Origin: Siphonodentalium dalli
Taxonomy: Eukaryota > Mollusca > Scaphopoda > Gadilida > Siphonodentaliidae
DNA length: 64,000 nucleotides
Direction: 5' to 3'
Assembly (NCBI GenBank): GCA_032622095.1
Contig: CP136063.1
Location: 217,637,982 to 217,701,981, forward strand
Shown here: one piece after another, positions 693-60,926 of the stretch
How positions within the stretch are numbered: position 1 is the stretch's first letter
How the letters are laid out: every line of letters starts with the position of its first letter
Position numbers and translations under genes: made by a program
Notes under the pieces: generated by a model
The model's input: only the letters and a program-made list of their open reading frames with translations
Databases searched by the model: none
Told to the model about the DNA's origin: nothing

Positions 693-3122
693 CCCAATGG
701 AACACTAACAATCATCAGTCAATCCTTTATTCTCGGCGACTTCAATATCCATTTTGATTCGACAACTGACAGTGACGTTAACGCCATAAAAACTTTAATT
801 GATGATTCGGGCATGAAACAACTTGTATCCGTACCTACGCACCGACAAAACCATATTTTGGACTGGGTGATTGTTCGCAAAACTGACCCTCAACCCATAA
901 ACCTGACGGTGCAGGACATCGATTTATCTGACCACTTCTTGGTCACTCTCAAAACAGACATTGTATGTCCCATATCACTTAAACGAACCACTACCTCTCG
1001 AGATTTGAAGTCCATCGACAGTGTTAAATTTTCCGGTGATCTAGTTTCTAGTTTCTACACCCATCCAAGGAAATCCCCTCTTAAGTGGTTCATTAATCTA
1101 CGTGCTTTACTGGATGGTCATGCGCCTTTAGTAACACGCAAAATTCGATGTCGTCCATCTACCCCGTGGTTCAATGATGAAATAAAGAGTGCCAAAGCTG
1201 ATAAGCGGCATGCTGAGAGGAGATGGCGAAAATCCGGTCTAACAGTTGATCGTCAAATCTATGTTGAAAAGAACAACCGTATGAATCAAATGACTAGATC
1301 TGCCCGTTCGGAATATTATAACTCTAAAATCGCGAATGCTAAATCAACAAAAGTCATCTATTCCATAACCAACGAACTAAGTGGTAAGAAAAAAGTACCA
1401 ATTCTTCCTACTAATGTTAAAGAAAGTGAATTACCGGATGCTTTTGGTGAATATTTCCGTGACAAAATTGCAAACCTGCGTTACCAGCTAGATGTATCAA
1501 ATGCTGAAGCAGAGTTCAAACCGTTCGTTGGTGACAGGCTTAGTTCGTTCTGCAAGCTTGCATGTGATGAGGTCAAGGAACTTATTTTATCATCCACTTC
1601 AAAAACATGTGTTTTGGATCCCATTCCAACTTCTTTACTGGTGGAACATATCGATTTTATATTAGAACCACTCACAAAGCTCATAAATTGGTCTTTGTCT
1701 GAAGGTGTTGTTCCTGACTGTTTTAAGGAGGCCGTTGTGATTCCCCTGATTAAAAATAATTCTCTGGATGCCGACTTGCTAAAGAACTATAGGCCCATCT
1801 CAAACCTTCAATTCGTCTCGAAGCTGTTAGAAAAAGCTGTCCTCAAACAACTGAGAAATCATATGGAGAAACATTTGCTTCTGGAAAAATTTCAGTCAGC
1901 GTACAAACCTGGTCACAGTACTGAAACTGCATTGTTGTGTATCACTTCAGACCTTCTTCTTGCCAGTGATGATAACAAGTTTTCACTAGTATCCCTGCTT
2001 GACATGAGCGCAGCTTTCGATACTCTTGATCACGAAATACTGTTGAAGCGATTGGAAATTTCTTTTGGGATATCTGACAGCGCGCTCAAGTGGTTCGGTT
2101 CATATCTCTCTAATCGTGTTCAGAGGATTCAAATTGGCAGTGCGTTTTCAAAAACCTTTCATCTGCAATATGGAGTCCCTCAGGGATCTGTCCTGGGGCC
2201 TGTCTTGTACTTAATCTACACCAAACCACTTGGTGAGATCATCAGGCGACACAGTGTCTCTGCTCACATGTATGCTGATGATACACAGCTTTACATTTCT
2301 GGTGATAACCCATATTTTCTTCTCACTGTAATGGAAAACTGCATCGGTTCTGTGAAATCGTGGATGTTGGCTAATACACTAAAATTAAATAGTGACAAAA
2401 CTGAAGTAATGTGGGTGTCTAAGCCGTCATACATAGAAAAGGTGGGCATAGATGTTATGACTATTGATGGTAACCAAGTTTATTTCTCAGATAAGGCGAA
2501 GAACCTTGGTGTATTTTTGGATAGATCACTCTCTATGACATCACATATTAGCCAGATATGCAAGACAATATACATTGAACTTCGAAAACTGGGTCAAATG
2601 AGGAAATACATAAACACTGACTCAGCTAAAAAACTTGCTTCATCTCTGATTCTCAGTCGACTTGACTATTGCAACTCTCTTTTGGCTGGTATACCATCTA
2701 TCCAAATTACCAGGCTTCAGCGTCTGCAACACACTGCTGCAAGGATAGTTCTGTGTCGTAAAAGATCTGACGACACAGATGAAATGTTGCAAGAACTACA
2801 TTAATGGCTACCTGTGACAGATAGGATTATTTATAAACTTGTTACATATGCATATCAAGCAACCCATGACCCAAAATCTCTTCCAGCATACTTCAGTGAT
2901 ATCCTTGTTCCGTATGTCCCACACCGATCACTTCGTTCAGAGGACAAACTTCTTTTGACACCATCTGGTGCTAATTTGATCACGGTTGGCTACCGATCTT
3001 TCAAAGTAACATGCGCAAATGCATGGAATCCTCTGCCATTGAACATAAAAGAGTCACCATCTCTTGACGACTTTAAAAAGTCATTGAAAACTTACTTGTT
3101 TGCACGGCGTTTCAGAAAGTGA
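693..3122 (+). pseudogene. CR1/L2-type non-LTR retrotransposon ORF2 (endonuclease tail and reverse transcriptase), one inserted stop
   Basis: The product would nick and reverse-transcribe its own RNA into genomic DNA. The frame opens at 693 after a stop and enters the C-terminal part of an endonuclease/exonuclease/phosphatase domain (ILGDFNIHFD near 729, then LSDHFLV). The first ATG, at 813, is internal to this domain. Counting from 813, the reverse transcriptase has YRPISN, FQSAYKPGHSTETAL, motif A DMSAAFDTLDH (D at about residue 397), motif B GVPQGSVLGP (about 454) and motif C YADDTQLY (about 487). A TAA at 2802-2804 splits the conserved LH-WLPV block. It adds exactly three bases, and the same frame continues to the normal CR1/L2-like C-terminus (WNPLPL, LKTYLF) and stop at 3120. 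The 5' part of the endonuclease is missing, so this copy is truncated and probably inactive, though catalytic residues are intact. The clade is inferred from motif style and the 3' tail. Confidence 0.9.
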
Positions 3123-25755: not shown

Positions 25756-27980
25756 ACTAGAAGGTGACCCGACTTCGTCCGGGCTTTGACCTTGAATTGT
25801 CCATTTTGAAGGTCAAGGTCAAGAGGGGTCACGATTTGACCAGTCCAAAACACTGCCCGGACAAAAGTACACGACAAACGTGCCCGTCGAAATCCATCCG
25901 GTTTTAATTGATAATTTTGAAGGTCAAGGTCATGTCGGGGTCACGATTTGACCCGTCCAAAACACTCAGTGGACAAAAGTAACCCTATGTATAAAATTTC
26001 GTCGAAATACCATCAAAATTGGCGATTTGACCTTGAATTGACCCGATTTCAGAATCAAGGTCACGTCGCACAGGCAAATGAATATGCTTATGAGACTCCC
26101 CATACGAAAGTACCCCCACATACCAAGTTTCATCGAAATCCCGTGATATTCGGACGTTTGACCTTGAAATGACCCGATTCAAGGTCAATGTCACGTCGCA
26201 CGGGCAAATTAATAGGCCTATACCACTCCCCGGCCGAAGGTACCCCCACATACCAAGTTTCATCGAAATCCCGTGATATTCGGGCGTTTGCCATTGAAAT
26301 GACCCTATTTCAAGGTCAGGGTCACGTTGCACGGACAAATAAATAGGCCCATGCCACCCCCGGCCGAAAATACCCCCACATACCAAGTTTCATCGAAATC
26401 GGCTCTGCCGTTTTCGAGTTCATCGCGAACACACAGACAGACACACACACACAGACAGATCTTCCAAAAAATATATAATAGACTAGAAGGTGACCCGACT
26501 TCGTCCGGGCTTTGACCTTGAATTGTCGATTTTAAAGGTCAAGGTCAAATGGGGTCACGATTTGATCAGTCCAAAATACTGCACGGACAAAAGTACCCGA
26601 CAAACGTGCCCGTCGAAATCCATCCGGTTTTACCCGATTTGACCTTGAATTGATCATTTAGAAGGTCAATGTGAGGTCGGGATCACGATTTGACCCGTCC
26701 AAAACACTCAATGGACAAAAGTAACCCCATGTATCAAATTTCGTCGAAATCCAATCAAAATTGGCGATTTGACCTGGAATTGACCCGATTTCAAGGTCAA
26801 TGTCACGTCGCACGGGCAAATTAATGAGCCTATTTCACTCCCCGGCCGAAAATACCCCCACATACCAAGTTTCATCGAAATCCCGTGATATTCGGGCGTT
26901 TGACCTTGAAATGACCCTATTTCAAGGTCAAGGTCACGTCGCACAGGCAAATTAATAGGCTCATGTCACCCCTCGGCCGAAAATACCACCACATACCAAG
27001 TTTCATCTAAATCCCGAGATATTCGGGCGTTTGACCTTGAAATTACCCGATTTCAAGGTCAAGGTCACGTCGCACGGGCAAATTAATAGGCCTATGCCAG
27101 TTCCCGGTCGAAAATACCCCCACATACCAAGTTTCATCGAAATCGGTTCGGCCGTTTTCGAGTCCATCGCGAACACACAGACAGACACACACACACACAC
27201 ACACCGATCTTCCAAAATATATAATAGACAAGAAGGTGACCCGACTTCGTCCGGGCTTTGACCTTGAATTGACCATTTTGAAGGTCAAGGTCAGTTGGGG
27301 TAACGATTTGACCCGTCCAAAACACTGCCCGGACAAAAGTACCCGACAAAAGTACCCGTCGAAATCCATCCTGTTTTACCCGATTTGACATTGAATTGAT
27401 CATTTTGAAGTTCAATGTCAGGTTGGGGTAACGATTTGACACGTCTAAAACACTCAGTGGACAAAAGTTACCCAATGTATCAAATTTCGTGAAAATCCCA
27501 TCAAAATTCGCGATTTGACCTTGAATTGACCAGATTTCAAGGTCAAGGTCACGTCGCACGGGCAAATTAATAGGCCTATGCCACTCCCCGTCCGAAAGTA
27601 CCCCACATACCAAGTTTCACCGAAATCCCGTGATATTCGGGCGTTTGACCTTGAAATGACCCGATTTCAAGGTCAAGGTCACGTCGCACGGGCAAATTAA
27701 TAGGTTTTTGCTACTCCCCGGCAGAAGGTATCCCCACATACCAAGTTTCATCGAAATCCCGTGATATTCGGGCGTTTGACCTTGAAATAACCCGATTTCA
27801 AGGTCAATGTCACGTCGCACGGACCAATTAATATGCCTATGCCACCCCCCGGCCGAAAATACCCCCACATACCAAGTTTCATCGAAATCGGCTGGGCCGT
27901 TTTCGAGTTCATCGCGAACACACAGACAGACACACACACACACACACAGACAGCTAGATCTTCCAAAATATATAATAGAT
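25756..27980. mobile_element. Three tandem copies of a ~740-bp composite repeat with 130-bp core repeats and CA microsatellite (pearl/Helentron-like design)
   Basis: Three units start at 25756, 26482 and about 27228 with AGAAGGTGACCCGACTTCGT. They end with ACACACAGACAGACACACAC and then TCTTCCAAAATATATAATAG. Inside each, a core of about 130 bp recurs. It is marked by TTGACCTTGAAATGACCCGA, AAGGTCACGTCGCACGGGCA and CACATACCAAGTTTCATCGA, with steps of 130-131 bp measured at 26160 to 26290 and 27647 to 27778. A unique start, tandem cores, a microsatellite and a short AT-rich end is the plan described for oyster pearl elements, which have been linked to Helentrons. That link is an analogy here. The many ORFs across it translate repeats and are not genes. 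Confidence 0.75.
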
Positions 27981-28988
27981 ACAGCTGATAGATATATAAA
28001 CTACACAACAATATATATTGTATTTTTTTTGAAGATCTAAATTATAGAACTAAGCACTAACAATAAGTTTTGTGGAATCTCGTCTAATGGGCCAATTCAA
28101 ACATCCAAGTGTTGTCAACATGTTCGATATGAGCTTCTCCTCTGAATCATACGTGTACATTCCTATATATATATATAACAGAGTTCTGTGTCAAAACTTA
28201 TCCATGCATTAATTATACTAAAGAAGAAATGTGATGATATTGTCTCAGACATGTGCACGTCAAACATATATGACCATATATACACGACGGGTATTATGTA
28301 TATATATTTCATTACATGTATCACTTTATTATTTTCTCTCAAATACTGTATTTGTATATGGTTTAATGAGAATAAACATATTTGAATTTGAATTTGAGTC
28401 AGTGATGATTGCAATATACATGCACCATTGTACTCTATGATGCTGATAGACGTCAAACAACATTGTCATCATTAATCTAAGAATTAATTTTATCACATAA
28501 TTAGCCCCTAAATCCGGAATAATATTTTTTTAAAGTAAGACACACGTGTGTTATCGACACGCGCAACGAAGCGACGTAAGGGCTTAACGCAATTATGTCG
28601 ATGTCAATGCTAGAACTTTTATTATTATGTTTATTAGAATATATGTATAATATTCTATTTGTGTTGGTTTATTTAGAGTTGACTGCGAGGTAAACATGCA
28701 TGAGTGTTGTTGGACAATTTTATCAGCACGAAAAGACACTTTAGAATGGAGCTATACATTTTTTTCTTGAAGGCGTCTTTACGTCTTCTTTGGTTGTGAT
28801 AAGGTAATCAATATATTTTTTTAACCCAGCCATTTCGAGATCGTTTATCCTTGCTAAAATGTGATTATGTGATAAAATGGATCTCAAATTTGTCGCAATT
28901 CAATATACGAAATTGATTAATCGATTTGAGCCTAGAATTTAGTGCACTCGGTTGATAAATTTCGTATATAATTGTGACTCATTAGAGA
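27981..28988. other. Intergenic flank of the giant palindrome
   Basis: AT-rich with short ORFs. A weak hairpin pairs CAATATACGAAATTGATTAA (about 28901) with TTGATAAATTTCGTATATAA (about 28951). Otherwise nothing was recognised. Confidence 0.35.
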
Positions 28989-28994
28989 TCCTCT
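28989..28994. repeat. Left target-site duplication TCCTCT
   Basis: TCCTCT lies immediately outside the left end of the giant inverted repeat and is repeated in direct orientation at 43330-43335, immediately outside the right end. Confidence 0.75.
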
Positions 28995-29053
28995 AGTAGT
29001 ATTAAGAGAAGGCATTATCTCTGTAATATATAAGTGAGGGGGACAAGGAAAGT

Positions 29054-29430
29054 GTTCAACGTTACATTATCGACTAATTGCCTTAGGGTGTGGTCGTCGA
29101 GAATCCCCACCCCCACGGGATTTCATAAATACTACTTATCGAATGTTCAACGTTACATTATCGACTAATTGCCTTAGGGTAGTCGTCGTCTGTTAATCCC
29201 CACCCCCACGGGATTTCATAAATAAATACTACTTATCGAATGTTAAACGATACAATACCGACTAATATATATAGGTGTAGTCGTCGTCTGATAATCCCCA
29301 CCCCCACGGGATTTCGTAAATAGTATTTAACGAATGTAAACGTTACAATAACGACTAATTTATATAAGTGTATCAAAAATGAGCTGTTTTACAAGGCAGA
29401 TCTTATAGTCATACTGAATAGTAACTATTT
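29054..29430 (+). repeat. Subterminal tandem array, left arm (91-97-bp units)
   Basis: Units begin GTTCAACGTTACATTATCGA at 29054, 29145, 29242 (GTTAAACG) and 29336 (GTAAACG). Each contains TCCCCACCCCCACGGGATTT and ends AAATACTACTTATCGAAT or a variant. The phrase AATACTACT inside the units is the same nonamer that forms the extreme end of the element. The mirror array lies at about 42960-43276. This could be a set of binding sites for the mobilising enzyme. Confidence 0.75.
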
Positions 29431-32151
29431 TAAAAGCACATCCAAGCTACAATACGACCTATTTTATGTTAGGTAATGATGTATGTTTATTTCAGATGGT
29501 ATAGTAAAGCAAACTATTTCTAGGCAGATGATATAGTCAGGCTAACTAGTAACTATTTGAAGGATTATTACGCACGATTGAATACATGTATTGATATGTA
29601 GGTTAGTTATGATAGGTTAGTAAAATAATAGTCCTAGATGAGATCAATTATTCGCTAGTGAATAACCTCGTGCATGTAAAAACCACAAGGCTAAAACACA
29701 TGGAATATTTGTTAGTGTCGGAACTTTTTCTTCTTTATTGTAGATTTGTAGGTAACACTATTCGATCTCATAAAACTCGATATTACAGAGTCTCGTAGAA
29801 AACGAAATGTGGAACCCAACACTTTAGTTCCTTTAATGAATATAAATGGTACATGAATAAATCTTAGTATACAAACAGATATCAAAAAAACATAATCAAA
29901 TCAATCTTTTTTAAGATATGGACAGTCTGGTCTCCCCGTCGAAATATCTTCTGGCAAAAAAAAAATGTATCAATATTTAAAGTCAGACTAACTATTTCTA
30001 GGTTGGTGTTTAAATACCTCTTCTAGGCTATACTCAAACAAACAATTTCTAGGTTATTCAAACATTTCCAAAAATATACTGAGTAAATCTACAAATATTA
30101 ATTGGAATATAAAGAACAGAGTTAGCTCCCCTGTGAATTGTAACAGTATTAAAATTAATCATTATTTAAAGTCAAACTATTTATTTATAAGTTGGTCATA
30201 AAATTACTACTTCTAGGCTATGGGTTATACTCAGGCAAACTATTTTTAGGTTAATCAAAAATCAGAGTTGTAAACTAAATCTACAAATATTAATTGGAAT
30301 ATAAAGAACAGAGTTAGCTCCCCTGTGCATTTGAATAATCTGTTTTATTAAGTTCAATATAGATGTTAAACGATTGATATATGTTAATGAATGATACAGT
30401 GATATATTCGTTAGCGAATAAACCTATGCATGTAAAACCACAGGTCTAAACACATTGAACTTTTTAGGAACGTTCTTCTGTAGATTAGTAGGCAACACAT
30501 TTCAAAAACACCATTTCATAGTGATAGAAATAGAAATGTATAACCATTATCGGTTCCTTTAATGATTATGAATGACGGGAGTATTTTCGGTTTATATGAA
30601 GACAACGTATTTCAGTTCCAACACAAATTCAATATTTCAAAAATATAAAAAAATATCTCCCTTTTAATGAAATATTAAATGTAAAAGCACGATAAAGCAA
30701 TTAAAACACAATTTAATTTACTTTTTCGTCAACAAAATTGAAGTTATATGTTATAATGCTTCAAAATCAATCAAAATATGAAAATCAAATATCTCAATTG
30801 AAAGCCAAATTTAAAAAAAAACAATTTCAATGTTAACGGAAACAATTTAACAACAAAAAAATCTTGATCTGTTTTGCTAGCAAGTATCAAAAGTCCTTTT
30901 TCATTCCCACAATAATCGTAAAACACAATAAATGTTTTGTCTTTAATAAAAAAAAATATAAAAATATTATAATCATAGTCAAAAAAATTCAAGCACAAAC
31001 TTTATATGTAAAAAAAAATATGAAAATTAAATAAAACTTTAATCCATTTATTTGCAAAACAAATTTTTGAAACATTGTTGACTGTTAACGCAAACAACTG
31101 ATATTCCAAATCTTTTTAAACATCAAAAGTCGCACAACCAAAGTTAAATAAATGTTTTGTTTTAACATAACAAGACTTACTTGCCTACTAAAGAACAGAT
31201 CCATCGAAGTACAATTCTCTCTCAATTTTTACCTATGCGAATGTATCTGTTTATATAAGGAAAAAACATTCTATCTTTAGTCCCAAGCAAATGATGTCAT
31301 TCGAGGAATCTTTCTTTAAGTCGAATAATCTACCAACATATATCACAAAACATGATGAGGTCTTCGTCGAGAATTCATGTCCGACTCTGTTTAACATAAC
31401 AAGACTTACTTACTCATCAAAGAACAGATAATCCATCGAAGTATAATACTGTCTCAATTTTACCTATCCGAATGTATCTGTTTATATAAAAAAAACATTC
31501 ATTCTATCTTTACTCTCAACAAAATGATGTCATACGACCCAAGTCGAATAATCTAATATCATTCGTCGAGAATTCATGTCGAGCTCTAGTTATATACAGT
31601 AACACATTAATTTACTCAATCTATCTATAGTCACAAAAAGTGAAGTCGAGCTATCTTGTTAAATGTCCTCGTATGCCTATCATAATGTACCCCCCATTTT
31701 ATCCGACGACATGAATAATATAATTCATGTCGACATATATCTGTACAAGGCGACTAATTTATTCAACTAGGCTACCTAGCTTGGATCATATTTCAAAGAA
31801 CGCATTCGTTAACGACCCGTCCTTACAAAACCAGTAATTTAAAATACACCTGTCAAGTCGCTTATTTGAAGATCAACTTACCTTACGGTAAACATTCCAA
31901 ACATTCCAATTATAATATATAAGCGAGTTAAATGCCCTATAAAGTCACGGATTTAAAACGCTTGGTGAGTTTAGTTAAATTATGATTTCAGTTAACTTTT
32001 AATTAATTCATATCTTATTCAACCTATGTTCTGTGTAATTTAAAACGATAAATTACACTCAAGTTTGTATATTTATCGGAGCAAAACATATTGAGGAAGT
32101 TTGAAGCAGTTGTCTTAAAGTGACACTAAGATTTATTTTCTTATTTGCACA

Positions 32152-33135
32152 CAGTATACTTTGTTTAAACCAGATGTCTTAAAATGGCACTAAGATTTAT
32201 TTTATTATTTTATATATCTCACACTATTTATAAACAACATGTCTTAAAAGGGCACTAAGATTTCATTTTATAATTTCAATACCAAAAGTGTTTCAATATC
32301 ACAGCAAAAAAAAAAATTGGAATAATTTTACCTCAGAATTGTTAATAAATAAGTCTTCTTCACATCTTAATTCTTAAAAGGGCGCTAATAATTTAACTCA
32401 AATATGGTTGAAAATGTATCGTTAAAGAGCGTTTATTATCTGCTTGTATGCAACTCTTTCAATCCCTCGTAATATTTGGATACAGTATACTTTGTTCAAA
32501 CCAGATGTCTTAAACTGGCAATAAGTTTTATTTTATTATTTTATATATCTCACACTATTTATAAACAAGATGTCTTAAAGGGGCACTAAGATTTCATTTT
32601 ATAATTTCAATAGCAAAAGTGTTTGAACATCACAGCCAAAAAAATTGTAATAATTTTACCTCAGAATTGTTAATAGATAAGTCTTCTTCGCATCTTAATT
32701 CTTAAAAGGGCGCTAATAATTTAACTTAAATATGGTTGAAAATTTATCGTTAAAGAGCGTTTATTATCTGTTTGTATGCAACTCTTTCAATCGCTCATAA
32801 TATTCGGATACAGTATACTTTGTTCATCCCAGATGTCTTAAAATAACACTAAGATTTATTTTATTATTTTATGTATCTCACACTATTTATAAACCAGTTG
32901 TCTTAAAAGGGCACTAAGATTTCATTTTATAATTTGAATACCAAAAGTGTTTGAATATCACAGAACAAAAATTGTAATAATTTTACCCCAAAATTGTTAA
33001 TAAATAGGTCTTATTCATATCATAATTCTTAAAAGGGCGCTAATAATTTAACTTAAATATGGTTGATAATTTATCGTTAAAGAGCGTTTATTATCTATTT
33101 GTATACAACTCTTTCACTCCCTCGTAATAGATAGG
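32152..33135 (+). repeat. Three-unit ~330-bp tandem array, left arm
   Basis: CAGTATACTTTGTT starts units at 32152, 32483 and 32811. Each unit carries GTCTTAAAAGGGCACTAAGA, CTTAAAAGGGCGCTAATAAT and TCGTTAAAGAGCGTTTATTA. The right arm has four copies of the junction motif (near 39170, 39498, 39824, 40156). It is non-coding. Confidence 0.8.
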
Positions 33136-34431
33136 TACCGTTCATATCAAACATATTAGAAGAGACATTAATAATATCCCCCACCTCAAAAGATACTAAT
33201 TATATAATCAATAAAGAGCATATATTTGTTCAGGCATTAATATTGTTGGATAAAAAACGCTGATCGCATAAATGAAAGGTTCAATAATCGTATTCAATGT
33301 GTACCCTAATTAGTTCTATATATAGACATATATCAAATTCATAATCAAATTATTATGTTTTAATTATCAAAACGGATACTATTACACTATTCCACACAAA
33401 CTTTTAGATAGTATATTACACTATCCAAATTAACATTGTTTCAATTTAGAGTCTATTTAAACATGCAAACTAAAAACAATATTCATAGTTTTACAAGTTT
33501 TTTGTATGTAAAATCTTGTTTGTCTACACGTTGTGGCTAAGCATATCATAACAGTATATTTACATTTATTTGGCAAATGCGCTTTAATTTCTACAAATTA
33601 ACATTCCAATTCAACAATTGTTTCATTTTTGAAAAAAAAAAAATACTGTAACAGTTTTGTTTACATACCATAAATATAACACTTACCTGGTTATGGCAAA
33701 TAATTCTCCCTTAATCATAATGGCAACACGGTTTGGAAAAACAAATGCTGGTGAATCCGTACGCAATTTAGCATCAGATGTAAATATGCTCGGACAGAAA
33801 CAGTTCCCGGTCGTTCGTTATTAAACTTACAATTGATGCAGGGTGTCAGGCGTTAAGTTTCAACAAGCAGTCAATGGCCATTATATATCTGATTAATGTA
33901 CCTATTTATACAAAATAACGCCTGTGTTGGCATCTGCACACACGCATAAAATTCATTAGTAGGCGCCCTATTGAGAGTTGATAATTTAGAATAATTATTT
34001 ATAACGCATTTATGTACAGATTTATACGATGAAAGCAAATATAAAATGCGTATGTGCACACGACCATTATGTACTTTCAATGCTATGCCTATCAATAGTA
34101 TGCAATTATCTCGCAAAATCAATCAAACAATAATATTAAGCTAATTCTGTTAGCTGCACCATTACATCTGAAATTGCTCGATATCGTTAGACTAGGTTAA
34201 TGTATGTTTTATATGCATGTTCCCGTTCATTATCTGCACATTTTTTAAATCGGCACGGAAATCTACCTACTAACTTATTTGAACGCACAATATAATTTGG
34301 ATAGTTAAATCATACATCTTATCACTGGAATAATATGCTCTAAATCTTTTGGCAGGGCTATTTCAATATAAAACATATGTATTCAAAGTTTCTAATATAT
34401 AAATTATACCACAAATTATCATACAAAAAAT

Positions 34432-35215
34432 ATGTTTTCAAGATGGCATCCAATATGGCTATTCAGAAATGTGAGCTTCAAAATATATCCTGATAAAATG
34501 TACACATTTGCTGTGATCATATATCATACAAATGGTTGTATTAGCGTTTTTAGCGTAATTCCTATGCTATCTCCATTACAAAAAAATTGGTTGCCAAAAA
34601 TGGCCATCGTTTACTTTAAGATACAGGGCTTAAAAATGTATTGCATTTTTACAAAGGCTCATATGCATCATTTAGGTTTTTATTTTGTATAGTATATTCC
34701 AAATTATCATACAATTTGTCATCACAAAAAACAATATATGTTTTCAAGATGGCGTCCAATATGTCTATTCTGAAATGTCAGCTTCAAAATATATCTTGAT
34801 AAAATGTACACATTTGCTATGATCATATATTGTTCAACTGGATGTATTAGCGTTTATACCATAATACCTATGCTATCTCCATTACAAAAATGGCTGCCAA
34901 AATGACATCGTTTACTTCAAGATACAGGGTTTAAAACTGTATTGCATTTTTACAAAGGCTCATATATATCATTTAGGTTTGTATAGTATATGCCAAATTA
35001 TCATTCAATTTGTCATCACAAAAAACAATATATGTTTTCAAGATGGCGTCCAATATAGCTATTCAGAAATGTCAGCTTCAAAATATATCTTGATACAATG
35101 TACACATTTGCTGTGATCATATATTGTTCAACTTAATGTATTAGCGTTTATAGCACAATACCTATGATATCCCTACTATAAAATGGCTTCCAAAATGGCC
35201 ACCATTACTCTAAAA
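34432..35215 (+). repeat. Three-unit ~300-bp array with CAAGATGGCGTCCAATAT, left arm
   Basis: TTTTCAAGATGGCRTCCAAT recurs at about 34435, 34742 and 35038, followed each time by GCTTCAAAATATATC, TGTACACATTTGCT and AAATGGC-type sequence. The mirror array is at about 36770-37560. The CAAGATGGC core resembles the consensus of YY1-type zinc-finger sites, but similar phrases are also common in invertebrate repeats. Confidence 0.75.
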
Positions 35216-35788
35216 TACAAAGCTTAAAATTACATGCTTAATTTAGAAAGTTGATTTTTATGAGTTATACTACTTATTTCTTCAAAGAGTTGATATTGTC
35301 TTATTCTTATCACAGTTTTAAAAACAATCTACAAAAAATGTTCATTGTGTATCATATAATGAGTTCTTGGTAGGCTATCGGATTGTACAACATATACGTA
35401 TTTATATTTGTTTGTAATATCCGATGGAGTATTTCGCAAATAAAGTTGTCAAATGCTATAATATAATATAAACTCTCAATATTAAAGTATTAAACAAACG
35501 AAAAAATAGTCACAGAGCCGTCCTATGGGGTAGAATCCCTCTATTACATATCTCATACACAATATGATTTTGTTTTAAACCGAGTTGTGTGGAACATAGA
35601 CATATTAATCAACCGTTCTAGAACAAATTACTTAAACAATCTTTTCTTAAAAGCTGTTTAAAAAATTGTCTACCTAATTCTCAATTATTTTTTGCTTGGT
35701 TCGTAGTTTTATCATATGGAGCGTAGGTTCGAAACGAAATTAGTAAGAACGTTTTTTTTCTTTTTTGGTAATGGGAATGTCTCAGGGG

Positions 35789-36199
35789 TTGAAAATCAAC
35801 CCCCCTTATATATATCAATTAACTATGTTGGCAGTAATCAGATTTATTTTTGTGTATAGTGGTCATCAACTGACTACATTTCAGTTGTTTATAATGTATA
35901 TAATATCTTGTTTTGTTCATACATTTCGAGAAGAAAGACAAAATATCACTCGGTTTTATTTTGTAAAATACCGAACATTTCTCTGAAGCTGTGTATTTTG
36001 AAGTAAATGTTGGCCATTTTATAATGGCGTCACCGTTGCTAATACCTTATCAACGCGAAGACAGCTAAGCGCATAATTATGTGATCATATTAACTAAGGA
36101 ATACAATTTATCAGATATATTTTGAAGCTCACAGTTCTCAATTACCATATTGGACGCCATCTTGAAAACATAGCATTAAGTGATTTATAGCAGAATTTA
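35789..36199. repeat. Central spacer of the giant palindrome
   Basis: The 411 bp between the arms are not self-complementary. They contain a decayed half unit of the neighbouring ~300-bp array in right-arm orientation (TATATTTTGAAGCTCACAG near 36117, CCATATTGGACGCCATCTTG near 36146). So the symmetry centre lies inside or beside that array. A 73-codon ORF enters from the left arm and has no recognisable motif. Confidence 0.7.
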
Positions 36200-39100
36200 C
36201 CCCTGAGACATTCCCATTACCAAAAAAGAAAAAAAACGTTCTTACTAATTTCGTTTCGAACCTACGCTCCATATGATAAAACTACGAACCTAGCAAAAAA
36301 TAATTGAGAATTAGGTAGACAATTTTTTAAACAGCTTTTAAGAAAAGATTGTTTAAGTAATTTGTTCTAGAACGGTTGATTAAAATGTCTATGTTCCACA
36401 CAACTCGGTTTAAAACAAAATCATATTGTGTATGAGATATGTAATAGAGGGATTCTACCCCATAGGACGGCTCTGTGACTATTTTTTCGTTTGTTTAATA
36501 CTTTAATATTGAGAGTTTATATTATATTATAGCATTTGACAACTTTATTTGCGAAATACTCCATCGGATATTACAAACAAATATAAATACGTATATGTTG
36601 TACAATCCGATAGCCTACCAAGAACTCATTATATGATACACAATGAACATTTTTTGTAGATTGTTTTTAAAACTGTGATAAGAATAAGACAATATCAACT
36701 CTTTGAAGAAATAAGTAGTATAACTCATAAAAATCAACTTTCTAAATTAAGCATGTAATTTTAAGCTTTGTATTTTAGAGTAATGGTGGCCATTTTGGAA
36801 GCCATTTTATAGTAGGGATATCATAGGTATTATGCTATAAACGCTAATATATTAAGTTGAACAATATATGATCACAGCAAATGTGTACATTGTATCAAGA
36901 TATATTTTGAAGCTGACATTTCTGAATAGCTATATTGGACGCCATCTTGAAAACATATATTGTTTTTTGTGATGACAAATTGAATGATAATTTGGCATAT
37001 ACTATACAAACCTAAATGATATATATGAGCCTTTGTAAAAATGCAATACAGTTTTAAACCCTGTATCTTGAAGTAAACGATGTCATTTTGGCAGCCATTT
37101 TTGTAATGGAGATAGCATAGGTATTATGGTATAAACGCTAATACATCCAGTTGAACAATATATGATCATAGCAAATGTGTACATTTTATCAAGATATATT
37201 TTGAAGCTGACATTTCAGAATAGACATATTGGACGCCATCTTGAAAACATATATTGTTTTTTGTGATGACAAATTGTATGATAATTTGGAATATACTATA
37301 CAAAATAAAAACCTAAATGATGCATATGAGCCTTTGTAAAAATGCAATACATTTTTAAGCCCTGTATCTTAAAGTAAACGATGGCCATTTTTGGCAACCA
37401 ATTTTTTTGTAATGGAGATAGCATAGGAATTACGCTAAAAACGCTAATACAACCATTTGTATGATATATGATCACAGCAAATGTGTACATTTTATCAGGA
37501 TATATTTTGAAGCTCACATTTCTGAATAGCCATATTGGATGCCATCTTGAAAACATATTTTTTGTATGATAATTTGTGGTATAATTTATATATTAGAAAC
37601 TTTGAATACATATGTTTTATATTGAAATAGCCCTGCCAAAAGATTTAGAGCATATTATTCCAGTGATAAGATGTATGATTTAACTATCCAAATTATATTG
37701 TGCGTTCAAATAAGTTAGTAGGTAGATTTCCGTGCCGATTTAAAAAATGTGCAGATAATGAACGGGAACATGCATATAAAACATACATTAACCTAGTCTA
37801 ACGATATCGAGCAATTTCAGATGTAATGGTGCAGCTAACAGAATTAGCTTAATATTATTGTTTGATTGATTTTGCGAGATAATTGCATACTATTGATAGG
37901 CATAGCATTGAAAGTACATAATGGTCGTGTGCACATACGCATTTTATATTTGCTTTCATCGTATAAATCTGTACATAAATGCGTTATAAATAATTATTCT
38001 AAATTATCAACTCTCAATAGGGCGCCTACTAATGAGTTTTATGCGTGTGTGCAGATGCCAACACAGGCGTTATTTTGTATAAATAGGTACATTAATCAGA
38101 TATATAATGGCCATTGACTGCTTGTTGAAACTTAACGCCTGACACCCTGCATCAATTGTAAGTTTAATAACGAACGACCGGGAACTGTTTCTGTCCGAGC
38201 ATATTTACATCTGATGCTAAATTGCGTACGGATTCACCAGCATTTGTTTTTCCAAACCGTGTTGCCATTATGATTAAGGGAGAATTATTTGCCATAACCA
38301 GGTAAGTGTTATATTTATGGTATGTAAACAAAACTGTTACAGTATTTTTTTTTTTTCAAAAATGAAACAATTGTTGAATTGGAATGTTAATTTGTAGAAA
38401 TTAAAGCGCATTTGCCAAATAAATGTAAATATACTGTTATGATATGCTTAGCCACAACGTGTAGACAAATAAGATTTTACATACAAAAAACTTGTAAAAC
38501 TATGAATATTGTTTTTAGTTTGCATGTTTAAATAGACTCTAAATTGAAACAATGTTAATTTGGATAGTGTAATATACTATCTAAAAGTTTGTGTGGAATA
38601 GTGTAATAGTATCCGTTTTGATAATTAAAACATAATAATTTGATTATGAATTTGATATATGTCTATATATAGAACTAATTAGGGTACACATTGAATACGA
38701 TTATTGAACCTTTCATTTATGCGATCAGCGTTTTTTATCCAACAATATTAATGCCTGAACAAATATATGCTCTTTATTGATTATATAATTAGTATCTTTT
38801 GAGGTGGGGGATATTATTAATGTCTCTTCTAATATGTTTGATATGAACGGTACCTATCTATTACGAGGGAGTGAAAGAGTTGTATACAAACAGATAATAA
38901 ACGCTCTTTAACGATAAATTATCAACCATATTTAAGTTAAATTATTAGCGCCCTTTTAAGAATTATGATATGAATAAGACCTATTTATTAACAATTTTGG
39001 GGTAAAATTATTACAATTTTTGTTCTGTGATATTCAAACACTTTTGGTATTCAAATTATAAAATGAAATCTTAGTGCCCTTTTAAGACAACTGGTTTATA

Positions 39101-42100
39101 AATAGTGTGAGATATATAAAATAATAAAATAAATCTTAGTGTTATTTTAAGACATCTGGGATGAACAAAGTATACTGTATCCGAATATTATGAGCGATTG
39201 AAAGAGTTGCATACAAACAGATAATAAACGCTCTTTAACGATAAATTTTCAACCATATTTAAGTTAAATTATTAGCGCCCTTTTAAGAATTAAGATGCGA
39301 AGAAGACTTATTTATTAACAATTCTGAGGTAAAATTATTACAATTTTTTTGGCTGTGATGTTCAAACACTTTGGCTATTGAAATTATAAAATGAAATCTT
39401 AGTGCCCCTTTAAGACATCTTGTTTATAAATAGTGTGAGATATATAAAATAATAAAATAAAACTTATTGCCATTTTAAGACATCTGGTTTGAACAAAGTA
39501 TACTGTATCCAAATATTACGAGGGATTGAAAGAGTTGCATACAAGCAGATAATAAACGCTCTTTAACGATAAATTTTCAACCATATTTGAGTTAAATTAT
39601 TAGCGCCCTTTTAAGAATTATGATATGAATAAGACCTATTTATTAACAATTTTGGGGTAAAATTATTACAATTTTTGTTCTGTGATATTCAAACACTTTT
39701 GGTATTCAAATTATAAAATGAAATCTTAGTGCCCTTTTAAGACAACTGGTTTATAAATAGTGTGAGATATATAAAATAATAAAATAAATCTTAGTGTTAT
39801 TTTAAGACATCTGGGATGAACAAAGTATACTGTATCCGAATATTATGAGCGATTGAAAGAGTTGCATACAAACAGATAATAAACGCTCTTTAACGATAAA
39901 TTTTCAACCATATTTGAGTTAAATTATTAGCGCCCTTTTAAGAATTAAGATGTGAAGAAGACTTATTTATTAACAATTCTGAGGTAAAATTATTCCAATT
40001 TTTTTTTTTGCTGTGATATTGAAACACTTTTGGTATTGAAATTAAAAAAAGGAAATCTTAGTGCCCTTTTAAGACATCTTGTTTATAAATAGTGTGAGAT
40101 ATATAAAATAATAAAATAAATCTTAGTGCCATGTTAAGACATCTGGTTTAAACAAAGTATACTGTGTGCAAATAAGAAAATAAATCTTAGTGTCACTTTA
40201 AGACAACTGCTTCAAACTTCCTCAATATGTTTTGCTCCGATAAATATACAAACTTGAGTGTAATTTATCGTTTTAAATTACACAGAACATAGGTTGAATA
40301 AGATATGAATTAATTAAAAGTTAACTGAAATCATAATTTAACTAAACTCACCAAGCGTTTTAAATCCGTGACTTTATAGGGCATTTAACTCGCTTATATA
40401 TTATAATTGGAATGTTTGGAATGTTTACCGTAAGGTAAGTTGATCTTCAAATAAGCGACTTGACAGGTGTATTTTAAATTACTGGTTTTGTAAGGACGGG
40501 TCGTTAACGAATGCGTTCTTTGAAATATGATCCAAGCTAGGTAGCCTAGTTGAATAAATTAGTCGCCTTGTACAGATATATGTCGACATGAATTATATTA
40601 TTCATGTCGTCGGATAAAATGGGGGGGGGGGGGGGTACATTATGATAGGCATACGAGGACATTTAACAAGATAGCTCGACTTCACTTTTTGTGACTATAG
40701 ATAGATTGAGTAAATTAATGTGTTACTGTATATAACTAGAGCTCGACATGAATTCTCGACGAATGATATTAGATTATTCGACTTGGGTCGTATGACATCA
40801 TTTTGTTGAGAGTAAAGATAGAATGAATGTTTTTTTATATAAACAGATACATTCGGATAGGTAAAATTGAGACAGTATTATACTTCGATGGATTATCTGT
40901 TCTTTGATGAGTAAGTAAGTCTTGTTATGTTAAACAGAGTCGGACATGAATTCTCGACGAAGACCTCATCATGTTTTGTGATATATGTTGGTAGATTATT
41001 CGACTTAAAGAAAGATTCCTCGAATGACATCATTTGCTTGGGACTAAAGATAGAATGTTTTTTCCCTATATAAACAGATACATTCGCATAGGTAAAATTT
41101 GAGAGAGAATTGTACTTCGATTGATCTGTTCTTTAGTAGGCAAGTAAGTCTTGTTATGTTAAAACAAAACATTTATTTAACTTTGGTTGTGCGACTTTTG
41201 ATGTTTAAAAAGATTTGGAATATCAGTTGTTTGCGTTAACAGTCAACAATGTTTCAAAAATTTGTTTTGCAAATAAATGGATTAAAGTTTTATTTAATTT
41301 TCATATTTTTTTTTACATATAAAGTTTGTGCTTGAATTTTTTTGACTATGATTATAATATTTTTATATTTTTTTTTATTAAAGACAAAACATTTATTGTG
41401 TTTTACGATTATTGTGGGAATGAAAAAGGACTTTTGATACTTGCTAGCAAAACAGATCAAGATTTTTTTGTTGTTAAATTGTTTCCGTTAACATTGAAAT
41501 TGTTTTTTTTTAAATTTGGCTTTCAATTGAGATATTTGATTTTCATATTTTGATTGATTTTGAAGCATTATAACATATAACTTCAATTTTGTTGACGAAA
41601 AAGTAAATTAAATTGTGTTTTAATTGCTTTATCGTGCTTTTACATTTAATATTTCATTAAAAGGGAGATATTTTTTTATATTTTTGAAATATTGAATTTG
41701 TGTTGGAACTGAAATACGTTGTCTTCATATAAACCGAAAATACTCCCGTCATTCATAATCATTAAAGGAACCGATAATGGTTATACATTTCTATTTCTAT
41801 CACTATGAAATGGTGTTTTTGAAATGTGTTGCCTACTAATCTACAGAAGAACGTTCCTAAAAAGTTCAATGTGTTTAGACCTGTGGTTTTACATGCATAG
41901 GTTTATTCGCTAACGAATATATCACTGTATCATTCATTAACATATATCAATCGTTTAACATCTATATTGAACTTAATAAAACAGATTATTCAAATGCACA
42001 GGGGAGCTAACTCTGTTCTTTATATTCCAATTAATATTTGTAGATTTAGTTTACAACTCTGATTTTTGATTAACCTAAAAATAGTTTGCCTGAGTATAAC

Positions 42101-43329
42101 CCATAGCCTAGAAGTAGTAATTTTATGACCAACTTATAAATAAATAGTTTGACTTTAAATAATGATTAATTTTAATACTGTTACAATTCACAGGGGAGCT
42201 AACTCTGTTCTTTATATTCCAATTAATATTTGTAGATTTACTCAGTATATTTTTGGAAATGTTTGAATAACCTAGAAATTGTTTGTTTGAGTATAGCCTA
42301 GAAGAGGTATTTAAACACCAACCTAGAAATAGTTAGTCTGACTTTAAATATTGATACATTTTTTTTTTGCCAGAAGATATTTCGACGGGGAGACCAGACT
42401 GTCCATATCTTAAAAAAGATTGATTTGATTATGTTTTTTTGATATCTGTTTGTATACTAAGATTTATTCATGTACCATTTATATTCATTAAAGGAACTAA
42501 AGTGTTGGGTTCCACATTTCGTTTTCTACGAGACTCTGTAATATCGAGTTTTATGAGATCGAATAGTGTTACCTACAAATCTACAATAAAGAAGAAAAAG
42601 TTCCGACACTAACAAATATTCCATGTGTTTTAGCCTTGTGGTTTTTACATGCACGAGGTTATTCACTAGCGAATAATTGATCTCATCTAGGACTATTATT
42701 TTACTAACCTATCATAACTAACCTACATATCAATACATGTATTCAATCGTGCGTAATAATCCTTCAAATAGTTACTAGTTAGCCTGACTATATCATCTGC
42801 CTAGAAATAGTTTGCTTTACTATACCATCTGAAATAAACATACATCATTACCTAACATAAAATAGGTCGTATTGTAGCTTGGATGTGCTTTTAAAATAGT
42901 TACTATTCAGTATGACTATAAGATCTGCCTTGTAAAACAGCTCATTTTTGATACACTTATATAAATTAGTCGTTATTGTAACGTTTACATTCGTTAAATA
43001 CTATTTACGAAATCCCGTGGGGGTGGGGATTATCAGACGACGACTACACCTATATATATTAGTCGGTATTGTATCGTTTAACATTCGATAAGTAGTATTT
43101 ATTTATGAAATCCCGTGGGGGTGGGGATTAACAGACGACGACTACCCTAAGGCAATTAGTCGATAATGTAACGTTGAACATTCGATAAGTAGTATTTATG
43201 AAATCCCGTGGGGGTGGGGATTCTCGACGACCACACCCTAAGGCAATTAGTCGATAATGTAACGTTGAACACTTTCCTTGTCCCCCTCACTTATATATTA
43301 CAGAGATAATGCCTTCTCTTAATACTACT
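36200..43329 (-). repeat. Right arm of the giant palindrome
   Basis: This is the reverse complement of 28995-35788 with few differences. It contains one extra ~330-bp tandem unit (arm 7,130 bp against 6,794). It also has a poly-G run at 40621-40636, where the left arm has seven C at about 31690, and scattered single-base and homopolymer changes. All small ORFs of the left arm reappear mirrored (for example 41326-41553 against 30771-30998). Confidence 0.85.
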
Positions 43330-43335
43330 TCCTCT
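43330..43335. repeat. Right target-site duplication TCCTCT
   Basis: Direct repeat of 28989-28994 directly abutting the right end of the palindrome. Confidence 0.75.
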
Positions 43336-55755: not shown

Positions 55756-58700
55756 AGCTGTACTCACCAGAGATAAGGAAAGCTGTACTCACCAGAGATA
55801 AGGAATGAGCTGTACTCACCAGAGATAAGGAATGAGCTGTACTCACCAGAGATAAGCTGTACTCACCAGAGATAAGGAATGAGCTGTACTCACCAGAGAT
55901 AAGGAATGAGCTGTACTCACCAGAGATAAGGAATGAGCTGTACTCACCAGAGATAAGCTGTACTCACCAGAGATAAGGAATGAGCTGTACTCACCAGAGA
56001 TAAGGAATGAGCTGTACTCACCAGAGATAAGGAATGAGCTGTACTCACCAGAGATACTCACCAGAGATAAGGAATGAGCTGTACTCACCAGAGATAAGCT
56101 GTACTCACCAGAGATAAGGAATGAGCTGTACTCACCAGAGATAAGGAATGAGCTGTACTCACCAGAGATAAGGAATGAGCTGTACTCACCAGAGATAAGG
56201 AATGAGCTGTACTCACCAGAGATAAGCTGTACTCACCAGAGATAAGGAATGAGCTGTACTCACCAGAGATAAGGAATGAGCTGTACTCACCAGAGATAAG
56301 GAATGAGCTGTACTCACCAGAGATAAGGAATGAGCTGTACTCACCAGAGATAAGGAATGAGCTGTACTCACCAGAGATAAGCTGTACTCACCAGAGATAA
56401 GGAATGAGCTGTACTCACCAGAGATAAGGAATGGGCTGTACTCACCAGAGATAAGGAATGGGCTGTACTCACCAGAGATAAGCTGTACTCACCAGAGATA
56501 AGGAATGAGCTGTACTCACCAGAGATAAGGAATGAGCTGTACTCACCAGAGATAAGGAATGAGCTGTACTCACCAGAGATAAGGAATGAGCTGTACTCAC
56601 CAGAGATAAGGAATGAGCTGTACTCACCAGAGATAAGCTGTACTCACCAGAGATAAGGAATGAGCTGTACTCACCAGAGATAAGGAATGAGCTGTACTCA
56701 CCAGAGATAAGGAATGAGCTGTACTCACCAGAGATAAGGAATGAGCTGTACTCACCAGAGATAAGGAATGAGCTGTACTCACCAGAGATAAGGAATGAGC
56801 TGTACTCACCAGAGATAAGGAATGAGCTGTACTCACCAGAGATAAGGAATGAGCTGTACTCACCAGAGATAAGGAATGAGCTGTACTCACCAGAGATAAG
56901 GAATGAGCTGTACTCACCAGAGATAAGGAATGAGCTGTACTCACCAGAGATAAGGAATGAGCTGTACTCACCAGAGATAAGGAATGAGCTGTACTCACCA
57001 GAGATAAGGAATGAGCTGTACTCACCAGAGATAAGGAATGAGCTGTACTCACCAGAGATAAGGAATGAGCTGTACTCACCAGAGATAAGGAATGAGCTGT
57101 ACTCACCAGATATAGCTGTACTCACCAGAGATAAGGAATGAGCTGTACTCACCAGAGATAGCTGTACTCACCAGAGATAAGGAATGAGCTGTACTCACCA
57201 GAGATAGCTGTACTCACCAGAGATAAGGAATGAGCTGTACTCACCAGAGAAAGCTGTACTCACCAGAGATAAGGAATGAGCTGTACTCACCAGAGATAAG
57301 GAATGAGCTGTACTCACCAGAGATAAGGAATGAGCTGTACTCACCAGAGATAAGGAATGAGCTGTACTCACCAGAGATAAGGAATGAGCTGTACTCACCA
57401 GAGATAAGGAATGAGCTGTACTCACCAGAGATAAGGGATGAGCTGTACTCACCAGAGATAAGGAATGAGCTGTACTCACCAGAGATAAGGAATGAGCTGT
57501 ACTCACCAGAGATAAGGAATGAGCTGTACTCACCAGAGATAAGGAATGAGCTGTACTCACCAGAGATAAGGAATGAGCTGTACTCACCAGAGATAAGGAA
57601 TGAGCTGTACTCACCAGAGATAAGGAATGAGCTGTACTCACCAGAGATAAGGAATGAGCTGTACTCACCAGAGATAAGGAATGAGCTGTACTCACCAGAG
57701 ATAAGGAATGAGCTGTACTCACCAGAGATAAGGAATGAGCTGTACTCACCAGAGATAAGGAATGAGCTGTACTCACCAGAGATAAGGAATGAGCTGTACT
57801 CACCAGAGATAGCTGTACTCACCAGAGATAAGGAATGAGCTGTACTCACCAGAGATAGCTGTACTCACCAGAGATAAGGAATGAGCTGTACTCACCAGAG
57901 ATAGCTGTACTCACCAGAGATAAGGAATGAGCTGTACTCACCAGAGAAAGCTGTACTCACCAGAGATAAGGAATGAGCTGTACTCACCAGAGATAAGGAA
58001 TGAGCTGTACTCACCAGAGATAAGGAATGAGCTGTACTCACCAGAGATAAGGAATGAGCTGTACTCACCAGAGATAAGGAATGAGCTGTACTCACCAGAG
58101 ATAAGGAATGAGCTGTACTCACCAGAGATAAGGAATGAGCTGTACTCACCAGAGATAAGGAATGAGCTGTACTCACCAGAGATAAGGAATGAGCTGTACT
58201 CACCAGAGATAAGGAATGAGCTGTACTCACCAGAGATAAGGAATGAGCTGTACTCACCAGAGATAAGGAATGAGCTGTACTCACCAGAGATAAGGAATGA
58301 GCTGTACTCACCAGAGATAAGGAATGAGCTGTACTCACCAGAGATAAGGAATGAGCTGTACTCACCAGAGATAAGGAATGAGCTGTACTCACCAGAGATA
58401 AGGAATGAGCTGTACTCACCAGAGATAAGGAATGAGCTGTACTCACCAGAGATAAGGAATGAGCTGTACTCACCAGAGATAAGGAATGAGCTGTACTCAC
58501 CAGAGATAAGGAATGAGCTGTACTCACCAGAGATAAGGAATGAGCTGTACTCACCAGAGATAAGGAATGAGCTGTACTCACCAGAGATAGCTGTACTCAC
58601 CAGAGATAAGGAATGAGCTGTACTCACCAGAGATAGCTGTACTCACCAGAGATAAGGAATGAGCTGTACTCACCAGAGATAGCTGTACTCACCAGAGATA

Positions 58701-60849
58701 AGGAATGAGCTGTACTCACCAGAGAAAGCTGTACTCACCAGAGATAAGGAATGAGCTGTACTCACCAGAGATAAGGAATGAGCTGTACTCACCAGAGATA
58801 AGGAATGAGCTGTACTCACCAGAGATAAGGAATGAGCTGTACTCACCAGAGATAAGGAATGAGCTGTACTCACCAGAGATAAGGAATGAGCTGTACTCAC
58901 CAGAGATAAGGAATGAGCTGTACTCACCAGAGATAAGGAATGAGCTGTACTCACCAGAGATAAGGAATGAGCTGTACTCACCAGAGATAAGGAATGAGCT
59001 GTACTCACCAGAGATAAGGAATGAGCTGTACTCACCAGAGATAAGGAATGAGCTGTACTCACCAGAGATAAGGAATGAGCTGTACTCACCAGAGATAAGG
59101 AATGAGCTGTACTCACCAGAGATAAGGAATGAGCTGTACTCACCAGAGATAAGGAATGAGCTGTACTCACCAGAGATAAGGAATGAGCTGTACTCACCAG
59201 AGATAAGGAATGAGCTGTACTCACCAGAGATAAGGAATGAGCTGTACTCACCAGAGATAAGGAATGAGCTGTACTCACCAGAGATAAGGAATGAGCTGTA
59301 CTCACCAGAGATAAGGAATGAGCTGTACTCACCAGAGATAAGGAATGAGCTGTACTCACCAGAGATAAGGAATGAGCTGTACTCACCAGAGATAAGGAAT
59401 GAGCTGTACTCACCAGAGATAAGGAATGAGCTGTACTCACCAGAGATAGCTGTACTCACCAGAGATAAGGAATGAGCTGTACTCACCAGAGATAGCTGTA
59501 CTCACCAGAGATAAGGAATGAGCTGTACTCACCAGAGATAGCTGTACTCACCAGAGATAAGGAATGAGCTGTACTCACCAGAGAAAGCTGTACTCACCAG
59601 AGATAAGGAATGAGCTGTACTCACCAGAGATAAGGAATGAGCTGTACTCACCAGAGATAAGGAATGAGCTGTACTCACCAGAGATAAGGAATGAGCTGTA
59701 CTCACCAGAGATAAGGAATGAGCTGTACTCACCAGAGATAAGGAATGAGCTGTACTCACCAGAGATAAGGAATGAGCTGTACTCACCAGAGATAAGGAAT
59801 GAGCTGTACTCACCAGAGATAAGGAATGAGCTGTACTCACCAGAGATAAGGAATGAGCTGTACTCACCAGAGATAAGGAATGAGCTGTACTCACCAGAGA
59901 TAAGGAATGAGCTGTACTCACCAGAGATAAGGAATGAGCTGTACTCACCAGAGATAAGGAATGAGCTGTACTCACCAGAGATAAGGAATGAGCTGTACTC
60001 ACCAGAGATAAGGAATGAGCTGTACTCACCAGAGATAAGGAATGAGCTGTACTCACCAGAGATAAGGAATGAGCTGTACTCACCAGAGATAAGGAATGAG
60101 CTGTACTCACCAGAGATAAGGAATGAGCTGTACTCACCAGAGATAAGGAATGAGCTGTACTCACCAGAGATAAGGAATGAGCTGTACTCACCAGAGATAA
60201 GGAATGAGCTGTACTCACCAGAGATAAGGAATGAGCTGTACTCACCAGAGATAAGGAATGAGCTGTACTCACCAGAGATAGCTGTACTCACCAGAGATAA
60301 GGAATGAGCTGTACTCACCAGAGATAGCTGTACTCACCAGAGATAAGGAATGAGCTGTACTCACCAGAGATAGCTGTACTCACCAGAGATAAGGAATGAG
60401 CTGTACTCACCAGAGAAAGCTGTACTCACCAGAGATAAGGAATGAGCTGTACTCACCAGAGATAAGGAATGAGCTGTACTCACCAGAGATAAGGAATGAG
60501 CTGTACTCACCAGAGATAAGGAATGAGCTGTACTCACCAGAGATAAGGAATGAGCTGTACTCACCAGAGATAAGGAATGAGCTGTACTCACCAGAGATAA
60601 GGAATGAGCTGTACTCACCAGAGATAAGGAATGAGCTGTACTCACCAGAGATAAGGAATGAGCTGTACTCACCAGAGATAAGGAATGAGCTGTACTCACC
60701 AGAGATAAGGAATGAGCTGTACTCACCAGAGATAAGGAATGAGCTGTACTCACCAGAGATAAGGAATGAGCTGTACTCACCAGAGATAAGGAATGAGCTG
60801 TACTCACCAGAGATAAGGAATGAGCTGTACTCACCAGAGATAAGGAATG
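55756..60849 (+). repeat. 5.1-kb minisatellite of 27-bp units derived from the LINE ORF
   Basis: The main unit is 27 bp, starts GAGCTGTACTCACCAGAGAT and translates as ELYSPEIRN. There are roughly 185 units. Shortened units of about 18-20 bp lack the GGAATGAG part, and one variant reads GAGAAAGCTG. From 57247 a higher-order pattern is visible: the GAGAAAG variant occurs at 57247, 57944, 58722, 59581 and 60413. Because 27 is a multiple of three, both strands are open for long distances. These ORFs are artefacts, apart from showing that the original LINE frame is retained. There are no unique spacers, so it is not a CRISPR array. Confidence 0.95.
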
Positions 60850-60926
60850 AATTTTTAAACGATGTGCCAGCTGATGTGCCACAAATTTCGAACACGTCAG
60901 CAAATTCGTGTGAGGGACCAGTTACC
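60850..60926 (+). pseudogene. L1/Tx1-like LINE ORF2, fragment between minisatellite and MITE
   Basis: In frame with the minisatellite units, NEFLNDVPADVPQISNTSAN and SCEGPVT run up to the TTAA of the MITE at 60927. Skipping the MITE, the same frame continues with LNGIKSSLKNMQSGKAPDSD at 61323 onward, a standard LINE linker (the GKAPDSDGL motif precedes the reverse transcriptase). Confidence 0.8.

Follow-up and report, generated by a model that had tools for sequence, protein, structure and literature searches.

A 14,335-bp palindrome in the genome of the scaphopod mollusc Siphonodentalium dalli is, in our reading, a copy of a non-autonomous palindromic satellite of Polinton/Maverick elements that is mobilised in trans and re-copied via a fold-back state; we give this reading a probability of about 0.72. 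The element, assigned no strand, occupies positions 28995-43329 of a 64,000-nucleotide stretch, here called the window (assembly GCA_032622095.1, contig CP136063.1, positions 217,637,982 to 217,701,981 of the forward strand). By analogy with defective viral genomes, the best reading of how the palindrome works is as a snap-back derivative.

The left arm (28995-35789, + strand) pairs inversely with the right arm (36199-43329, - strand). Arm-versus-arm blastn gave matches of 4146 bp at 98.0% and 3648 bp at 99.0%, the two overlapping within a tandem array. When the arms were aligned, 19 sites differed, corresponding to 99.7% identity of the aligned bases, and four indels were present, the largest being one 327-bp tandem unit (three copies on the left, four on the right). 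Both ends of the element are exact (AGTAGTATTAAGAG), and an inverted match this long is far beyond chance. A first-pass annotation of the window, made from its letters, had described exact inverted ends, near-identical arms and a 411-bp spacer; the ends and arms are as described, and the spacer exists with a measured length of 409 bp (35790-36198, no strand). The annotation was also right that no coding gene lies inside: the element contains no open reading frame (ORF) of 150 aa or more, and the frames listed for the left arm and centre, read from stop to stop, reach 98 aa at most. A search of Rfam at gathering thresholds found no match in the element. An 18-base end motif matched 10 contigs of IMG/VR, each across 18-19 bases alone, which we attribute to chance.

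The palindrome is an insertion with a 6-bp target-site duplication. TCCTCT stands exactly at both outer borders, at 28989-28994 on the left and 43330-43335 on the right (both + strand), as the annotation had noted in proposing that an empty site with a single TCCTCT might be found. Such a site exists. The sequence at the left flank (28600-28994) is repetitive, and the best other copy of its repeat family, on contig C9, is 99% identical; the joined window flanks match this copy at 1252 of 1275 positions, straight through the junction and with no gap there, and it is because this near-identical empty site has TCCTCT only once that the window palindrome must be an insertion. A second of the three flank paralogues fetched, 80% identical, also carries one TCCTCT and spans the junction, its match stopping 6 bp past it; for the third, the alignment viewed stops short of the junction.

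Further copies of the ends, which the annotation had suggested looking for, are present in the assembly (2.23 Gb in 9 contigs). With the first 306 bp as probe and 40 of 156 candidates scored, we obtained at least 43 matches, mostly inverted pairs 12.6-17.3 kb apart. We sorted 23 elements into two kinds by the sequence inward of the terminal repeat: 12 palindrome-type (the window element, E4, E5, E6, E9, E10, E11, E13, E16, E17, S3 and S4) and 11 Polinton-type (E2, E3, E7, E8, E12, E14, E15, S1, S2, S5 and S6). Ten of the 12 were directly seen to be palindromic, seven from alignment of both arms and E13, E16 and E17 from their centres; in S4 the sequence at either end is of the palindrome type, and the right end of S3 was not found in the one 1.7-kb piece in which it was sought. 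An inner-arm probe returned 281 first-look candidates, of which the 40 scored are 89-100% identical and fall into at least 26 loci, 14 of them with both arms among the scored matches. Both ends were read in 18 elements, 11 of the palindrome type and 7 of the Polinton type, and each of the 18 is flanked by an exact 6-bp duplication; in S4 and in E12 (CGCGTT on both sides) it was read by eye from the letters. Insertions with the same ends and no such duplication, named beforehand as a finding that would speak against a mobile element, were absent from this set.

Several features tie the ends of the palindrome to Polintons. The element begins and ends with AGTAGT...ACTACT, the (AGT)2//(ACT)2 motif of Polinton/Maverick elements. 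Its outer 857 bp (28995-29851, + strand; mirrored at 42473-43329, - strand, according to arm pairing and terminal-repeat comparison) are common with the Polinton terminal repeat, at 95% identity to E2 and E3, and the outermost 373 bp of the arm are 99.7% identical to the terminal repeat of E2. Past 857 bp the window arm keeps matching up to arm position 939 on one side of the Polinton only, the CCHC-ORF side or B end. The resulting 44-bp block (29890-29933, - strand; the same block at 42391-42434, + strand, in the right arm) is identical to E2 and includes a 33-bp stub of the Polinton's last gene, 29901-29933 being the last ten codons and stop of the B-end CCHC ORF. Whole or partial, it is present in 12/12 palindrome-type elements: E4 keeps the first 24 bp, E5 and E16 have a 9-bp deletion, and E9, E10, E13, E17 and S4 have one inserted base (the gap in E13 and S4 read by eye). 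All six Polinton B ends read contain it (43-44 of 44 bases), and it is missing from all nine Polinton A ends (22-23 of 44 bases match). These comparisons show both palindrome ends to be derived, on the evidence of the letters, from one particular Polinton end, that of the CCHC ORF.

Polinton genes include those for a protein-primed polymerase and a retroviral-type integrase. We read gene content in two of the 11 Polinton-type elements, E2 and E8, taken as separate halves, and found frames for PolB, ATPase and integrase between terminal repeats of about 0.8-0.9 kb. Pfam recognised PolB (2.2e-43, E8) and the integrase domain rve (2.3e-16, E2); the match of the ATPase frame was under its cut-off. 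Other frames in E2 and E8 we take to be capsid proteins, the putative capsid gene being split in E8, and a cysteine protease. The search for a coding element with the same ends, another suggestion of the annotation, was thus answered by Polintons with PolB and integrase domains. The left flank of E2 (L009:2-343) holds an open frame that by eye resembles the end of a long interspersed nuclear element (LINE) reverse transcriptase and probably offers a second source of empty sites.

The window element itself has no PolB or integrase gene, and tblastn of the E2 and E8 frames against the arms gave terminal-repeat matches only. What it does have is what a non-autonomous Polinton would have, namely the 6-bp duplication, the (AGT)2//(ACT)2 ends and a terminal repeat with a homologue in a gene-bearing element of the same genome. 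The annotation had offered two possibilities, a non-autonomous Polinton/Maverick derivative made up nearly entirely of inverted repeat and a new class of giant foldback transposon; the first is borne out by the duplications, the ends, the 373 bp at 99.7% and the gene stub in both arms, and the second is no longer needed. A foldback class unrelated to Polintons, with ends similar by chance, could draw on the arm interior, which matches nothing in the Polintons read besides a 49-bp segment, but is highly improbable given 857 bp of common terminal repeat, identity of up to 100% over 282 bp with Polinton repeats, and the remnant of a gene taken from one Polinton end. The interior further contains a repeat-like stretch (arm 1387-1581) that matches the terminal repeat itself weakly, at 67-69%. 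The 49-bp segment (33646-33694, + strand) is 86% identical to a Polinton stretch just after PolB and is inverted relative to the B-end match. It is common to L009 6765-6826 and L022 844-889, both in Polintons just after PolB, and its other strand by eye resembles a splice donor and acceptor about 40 nt apart.

The centres of the palindromes speak to how often the structure formed. Bases 33-409 of the window centre (377 of 409) are inner-arm sequence that in E5, E10 and E11 is found on both sides, and one side has therefore been lost in the window; by this alignment the centre is not a spacer of foreign origin. In its least altered form the centre consists of a 12-bp stem and a 12-nt loop. Among ten centres read, the stem-loop is present in six (E5, E9, E10, E13 with one mismatch, E16 and E17), half present in E4 and absent in E11, the window and E6, the last two having a common altered centre in opposite orientations. 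Genome-wide it occurs at 18 places with at most 2 mismatches, 14 of them exact and the orientations divided 10:8; a backwards control gave 0. Because the copies have this common centre, the palindrome is shown, as judged from its sequence, to have arisen once and then multiplied.

The centres bear on two other explanations. Each palindrome might have formed separately by fold-back of a one-arm Polinton deletion derivative, arm identity then reflecting recent formation. The near identity of the arms in every copy would fit, but we consider this very unlikely, since the same centre, down to the 12-nt loop, recurs at 18 places and in 6/10 centres read, with derived deletions in the others. Apparent one-arm loci do not supply progenitors either: the four fetched of 12 unpaired arm loci were all broken copies, L064 being a degraded palindrome, L062 and L063 truncated and L065 rearranged. 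L064 (C6:125010400-125020300) also has reverse-transcriptase-like frames inserted in it. The second explanation is that the palindrome was produced artefactually during assembly or library preparation. Inverted duplications are known to arise in this way, yet a chimeric origin is barely credible for one structure that recurs at many loci with different flanks, exact target duplications and an empty site, with centres that have changed in different ways and the loop found in either orientation.

Left and right arms of the same element are more alike than different copies. In trees of the interior, the two arms are sisters in all seven elements (UFBoot 91-100), and in trees of the outer 980 bp they pair in six of seven (74-100). 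Identity between the arms of one element is 98.9-100.0%, compared with 92.6-99.4% between elements (E9 represented by its outer 4.9 kb only, with a nested insertion excluded; arms trimmed where the pairing stops on the inner side). Two pairs of elements are close: window-E6 has 18 changes fixed in both arms of one member and 29 confined to a single arm, the corresponding counts for E4-E5 being 29 and 44. No inter-arm difference is common to two elements in any of the 21 element pairs. Inter-arm differences total 147; 117 of them occur in one element alone and are scattered along the arms, and E9 accounts for 26 of the remaining 30. Within E9, 51 of 55 such differences fall in the first 1000 alignment columns. 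These patterns imply arms free of differences at insertion or shortly before it, apart from one end of E9. Given the sisterhood of the interiors in 7/7 elements and the lack of common inter-arm differences, the arms therefore seem to be re-copied from each other about once per insertion. In the broken palindrome L064 they differ at 50 of 3001 bases (1.7%), above the interiors of intact copies, as a clock would give.

Chromosomal gene conversion, acting on an element of the same Polinton-derived origin as in sex-chromosome palindromes, would also make arms more alike than different copies in 7/7 elements, and long near-identical palindromes are conversion substrates. We nevertheless regard it as unlikely. 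Conversion does not readily account for inter-arm differences that are so largely private, spread along the arms and never common to elements, nor for the persistence of big one-arm changes (327 bp in the window, 757 bp in E6, 210 bp in E11 and a 3.8-kb insertion in E9). Divergence in the broken, older palindrome exceeds that of all seven intact interiors. Finally, Polinton terminal repeats, which are too short and distant for a chromosomal hairpin, are about equally alike, with 6/800, 9/797, 3/703 and 4/798 differences between the two ends. The annotation had concluded from the arm identity that formation was recent or conversion continuing; recent formation is contradicted by the one common centre and by copies differing by up to 7.4%, and conversion is less favoured than re-copying at or just before insertion.

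The outer ends have a history of their own. In trees of the outer terminal repeat, where support is weak at many nodes, palindromes and Polintons are interspersed. The left end of E9 is identical to Polinton S6, and E17 to Polinton S5, over 282 aligned bp. E13 and S3 have the E8-type terminal repeat and the window the E2-type, and the two ends of E9 (outer ends of L023 and L024) bear different types, as if one end had been swapped with a Polinton. Palindromes and Polintons thus likely exchange outer ends by recombination. The likeness of the outermost 280 bp could instead reflect strong constraint on the outermost repeat; we prefer exchange because the inner repeats of E13, S3 and the left end of E9 also match Polinton S1, at 99% over 527-528 bp.

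Taken as a satellite re-copied through a fold-back state, the palindrome would have arisen when a Polinton CCHC-ORF end and about 6 kb of non-coding sequence were joined to their own inverted copy through the 12-nt loop. Shared ends and duplications suggest that Polinton proteins mobilise it in trans, the (AGT)2 ends presumably serving protein-primed replication and the Polinton integrase probably inserting the palindrome to give the 6-bp duplication. Outside the chromosome, a displaced palindrome strand could fold to a hairpin, and synthesis round the loop, or repair within the hairpin, would rewrite one arm from the other. The dimer would then integrate with two identical arms, which would diverge afterwards.

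The length of the element may be set by the Polinton particle. Palindromes measure 12.6-14.6 kb (n=10; E9 is 17.3 kb counting its nested insertion) and Polintons 13.3-14.6 kb (n=7), and S4, computed by hand from its end positions, is 14.7 kb; few as the numbers are, these sizes fit one common limit. The nested insertion in the left arm of E9 is 3.8 kb long (L023:2268-6070) and has 74-bp inverted ends (98.6%), marking it as another mobile element. A bolder version of the cycle, to which we would give somewhat less than even odds, has the satellite alternating between a 7-kb hairpin monomer and a 14-kb palindromic dimer, with an arm rewritten in each cycle by protein-primed synthesis round the loop and the length held near the Polinton's 14.4 kb by particle filling. 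The palindrome would then be a long-lived, gene-less germ-line parasite of an integrated virus.

Several observations weigh against the satellite reading. No intact helper is shown, PolB being spread over several frames in E2 and having its frame broken in E8, and Pfam recognised neither the presumed capsid frames nor the presumed protease frames of these elements. From about 940 bp inward the arm interior is without known source. The outer 980 bp of E9 do not pair left with right, so homogenisation is incomplete there. The window element and E6 lost the stem-loop yet multiplied and were homogenised, and the loop is therefore not required. The likeness in length is based on just ten palindromes and seven Polintons, and the element is known from chromosomal copies, with no extrachromosomal form seen.

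Among known systems, yeast linear killer plasmids, with their hairpin and inverted-dimer derivatives, and palindromic defective adenovirus genomes are protein-primed linear DNAs that give inverted dimers; they differ in being extrachromosomal and not integrated. Foldback (FB-type) transposons make a 9-bp target duplication and have their own foldback ends, whereas the window element has a 6-bp duplication and Polinton ends. Miniature inverted-repeat transposable elements are short, usually <600 bp according to the portion of PMC3573991 that deals with them, and the window element has 14,335 bp. The nearest documented analogue in form is the snapback genome of adeno-associated virus, described in PMC8235507 as a self-complementary derivative of one helper-genome end that is either symmetric or has a loop at its centre, the dimer arising via second-strand synthesis. 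The palindrome is likewise a self-complementary copy of one helper end, with the B-end block in both window arms. Unlike it, the viral form belongs to a parvovirus with hairpin ends, is single-stranded in particles and has no heritable chromosomal lineage (PMC8235507). Galileo 2-TIR (terminal inverted repeat) elements, as the corresponding passages of PMC3573991 present them, are also gene-less and nearly all terminal repeat, with 98-100% identity between the repeats of one copy, tandem repeats and sequence exchange within the repeats; they differ in belonging to the P superfamily, in having repeats of at most about 1.25 kb and 7-bp border sequences, and in not being protein-primed (PMC3573991).

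Mavericks of vertebrates end in (AGT)2//(ACT)2, make 6-bp target duplications, carry terminal inverted repeats and are constrained in size, and PMC8097293 ties the end repeats to the jumping-back step of protein-primed replication. The palindrome family shares the ends, the 6-bp duplications, the terminal inverted repeats and the narrow size range, and the genome's gene-bearing elements have PolB and integrase. It differs in that the window element is gene-less and inverted repeat nearly throughout; vertebrate Maverick repeats average 402 bp in elements of about 17 kb (PMC8097293). The terms "palindrom" and "non-autonomous" occur 0 times in the main text of that paper, whose abstract describes Polinton/Maverick particles as not yet observed. 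Among the titles and abstract openings listed for open-licence papers on Polinton/Maverick elements, foldback elements and long palindromes, we found no description of a palindromic Polinton satellite.

Polinton replication has so far been deduced from genes; rewriting of the arms at each insertion would record the replication pathway in the chromosome and make the fold-back intermediate testable. The length of the satellite may in turn report the packaging limit of Polinton particles. More broadly, gene-less satellites can apparently travel with integrated virus-like elements, and a genome of 2.2 Gb can pass on and multiply 14-kb palindromes that have almost no spacer.

The arms of the window element contain tandem repeats. 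A subterminal 93-bp unit is present in 3.4 copies at 29053-29372 (mirror 42963-43266), a 328-bp unit in 3 copies at 32142-33129 (mirror 38859-40165, 4 copies) and a 294-bp unit in 2.6 copies at 34430-35197 (mirror 36759-37558), all listed on the + strand. Elsewhere in the window, a 663-aa frame at 813-2804 (+ strand) with the reverse transcriptase domain RVT_1 (1.2e-30) marks a neighbouring retroelement. At 26026-27889 a 131-bp unit forms three tandem arrays with about 2.9 copies apiece, and a 27-bp unit is repeated about 196 times at 55756-60850, where the long frames on both strands follow from the repeat.

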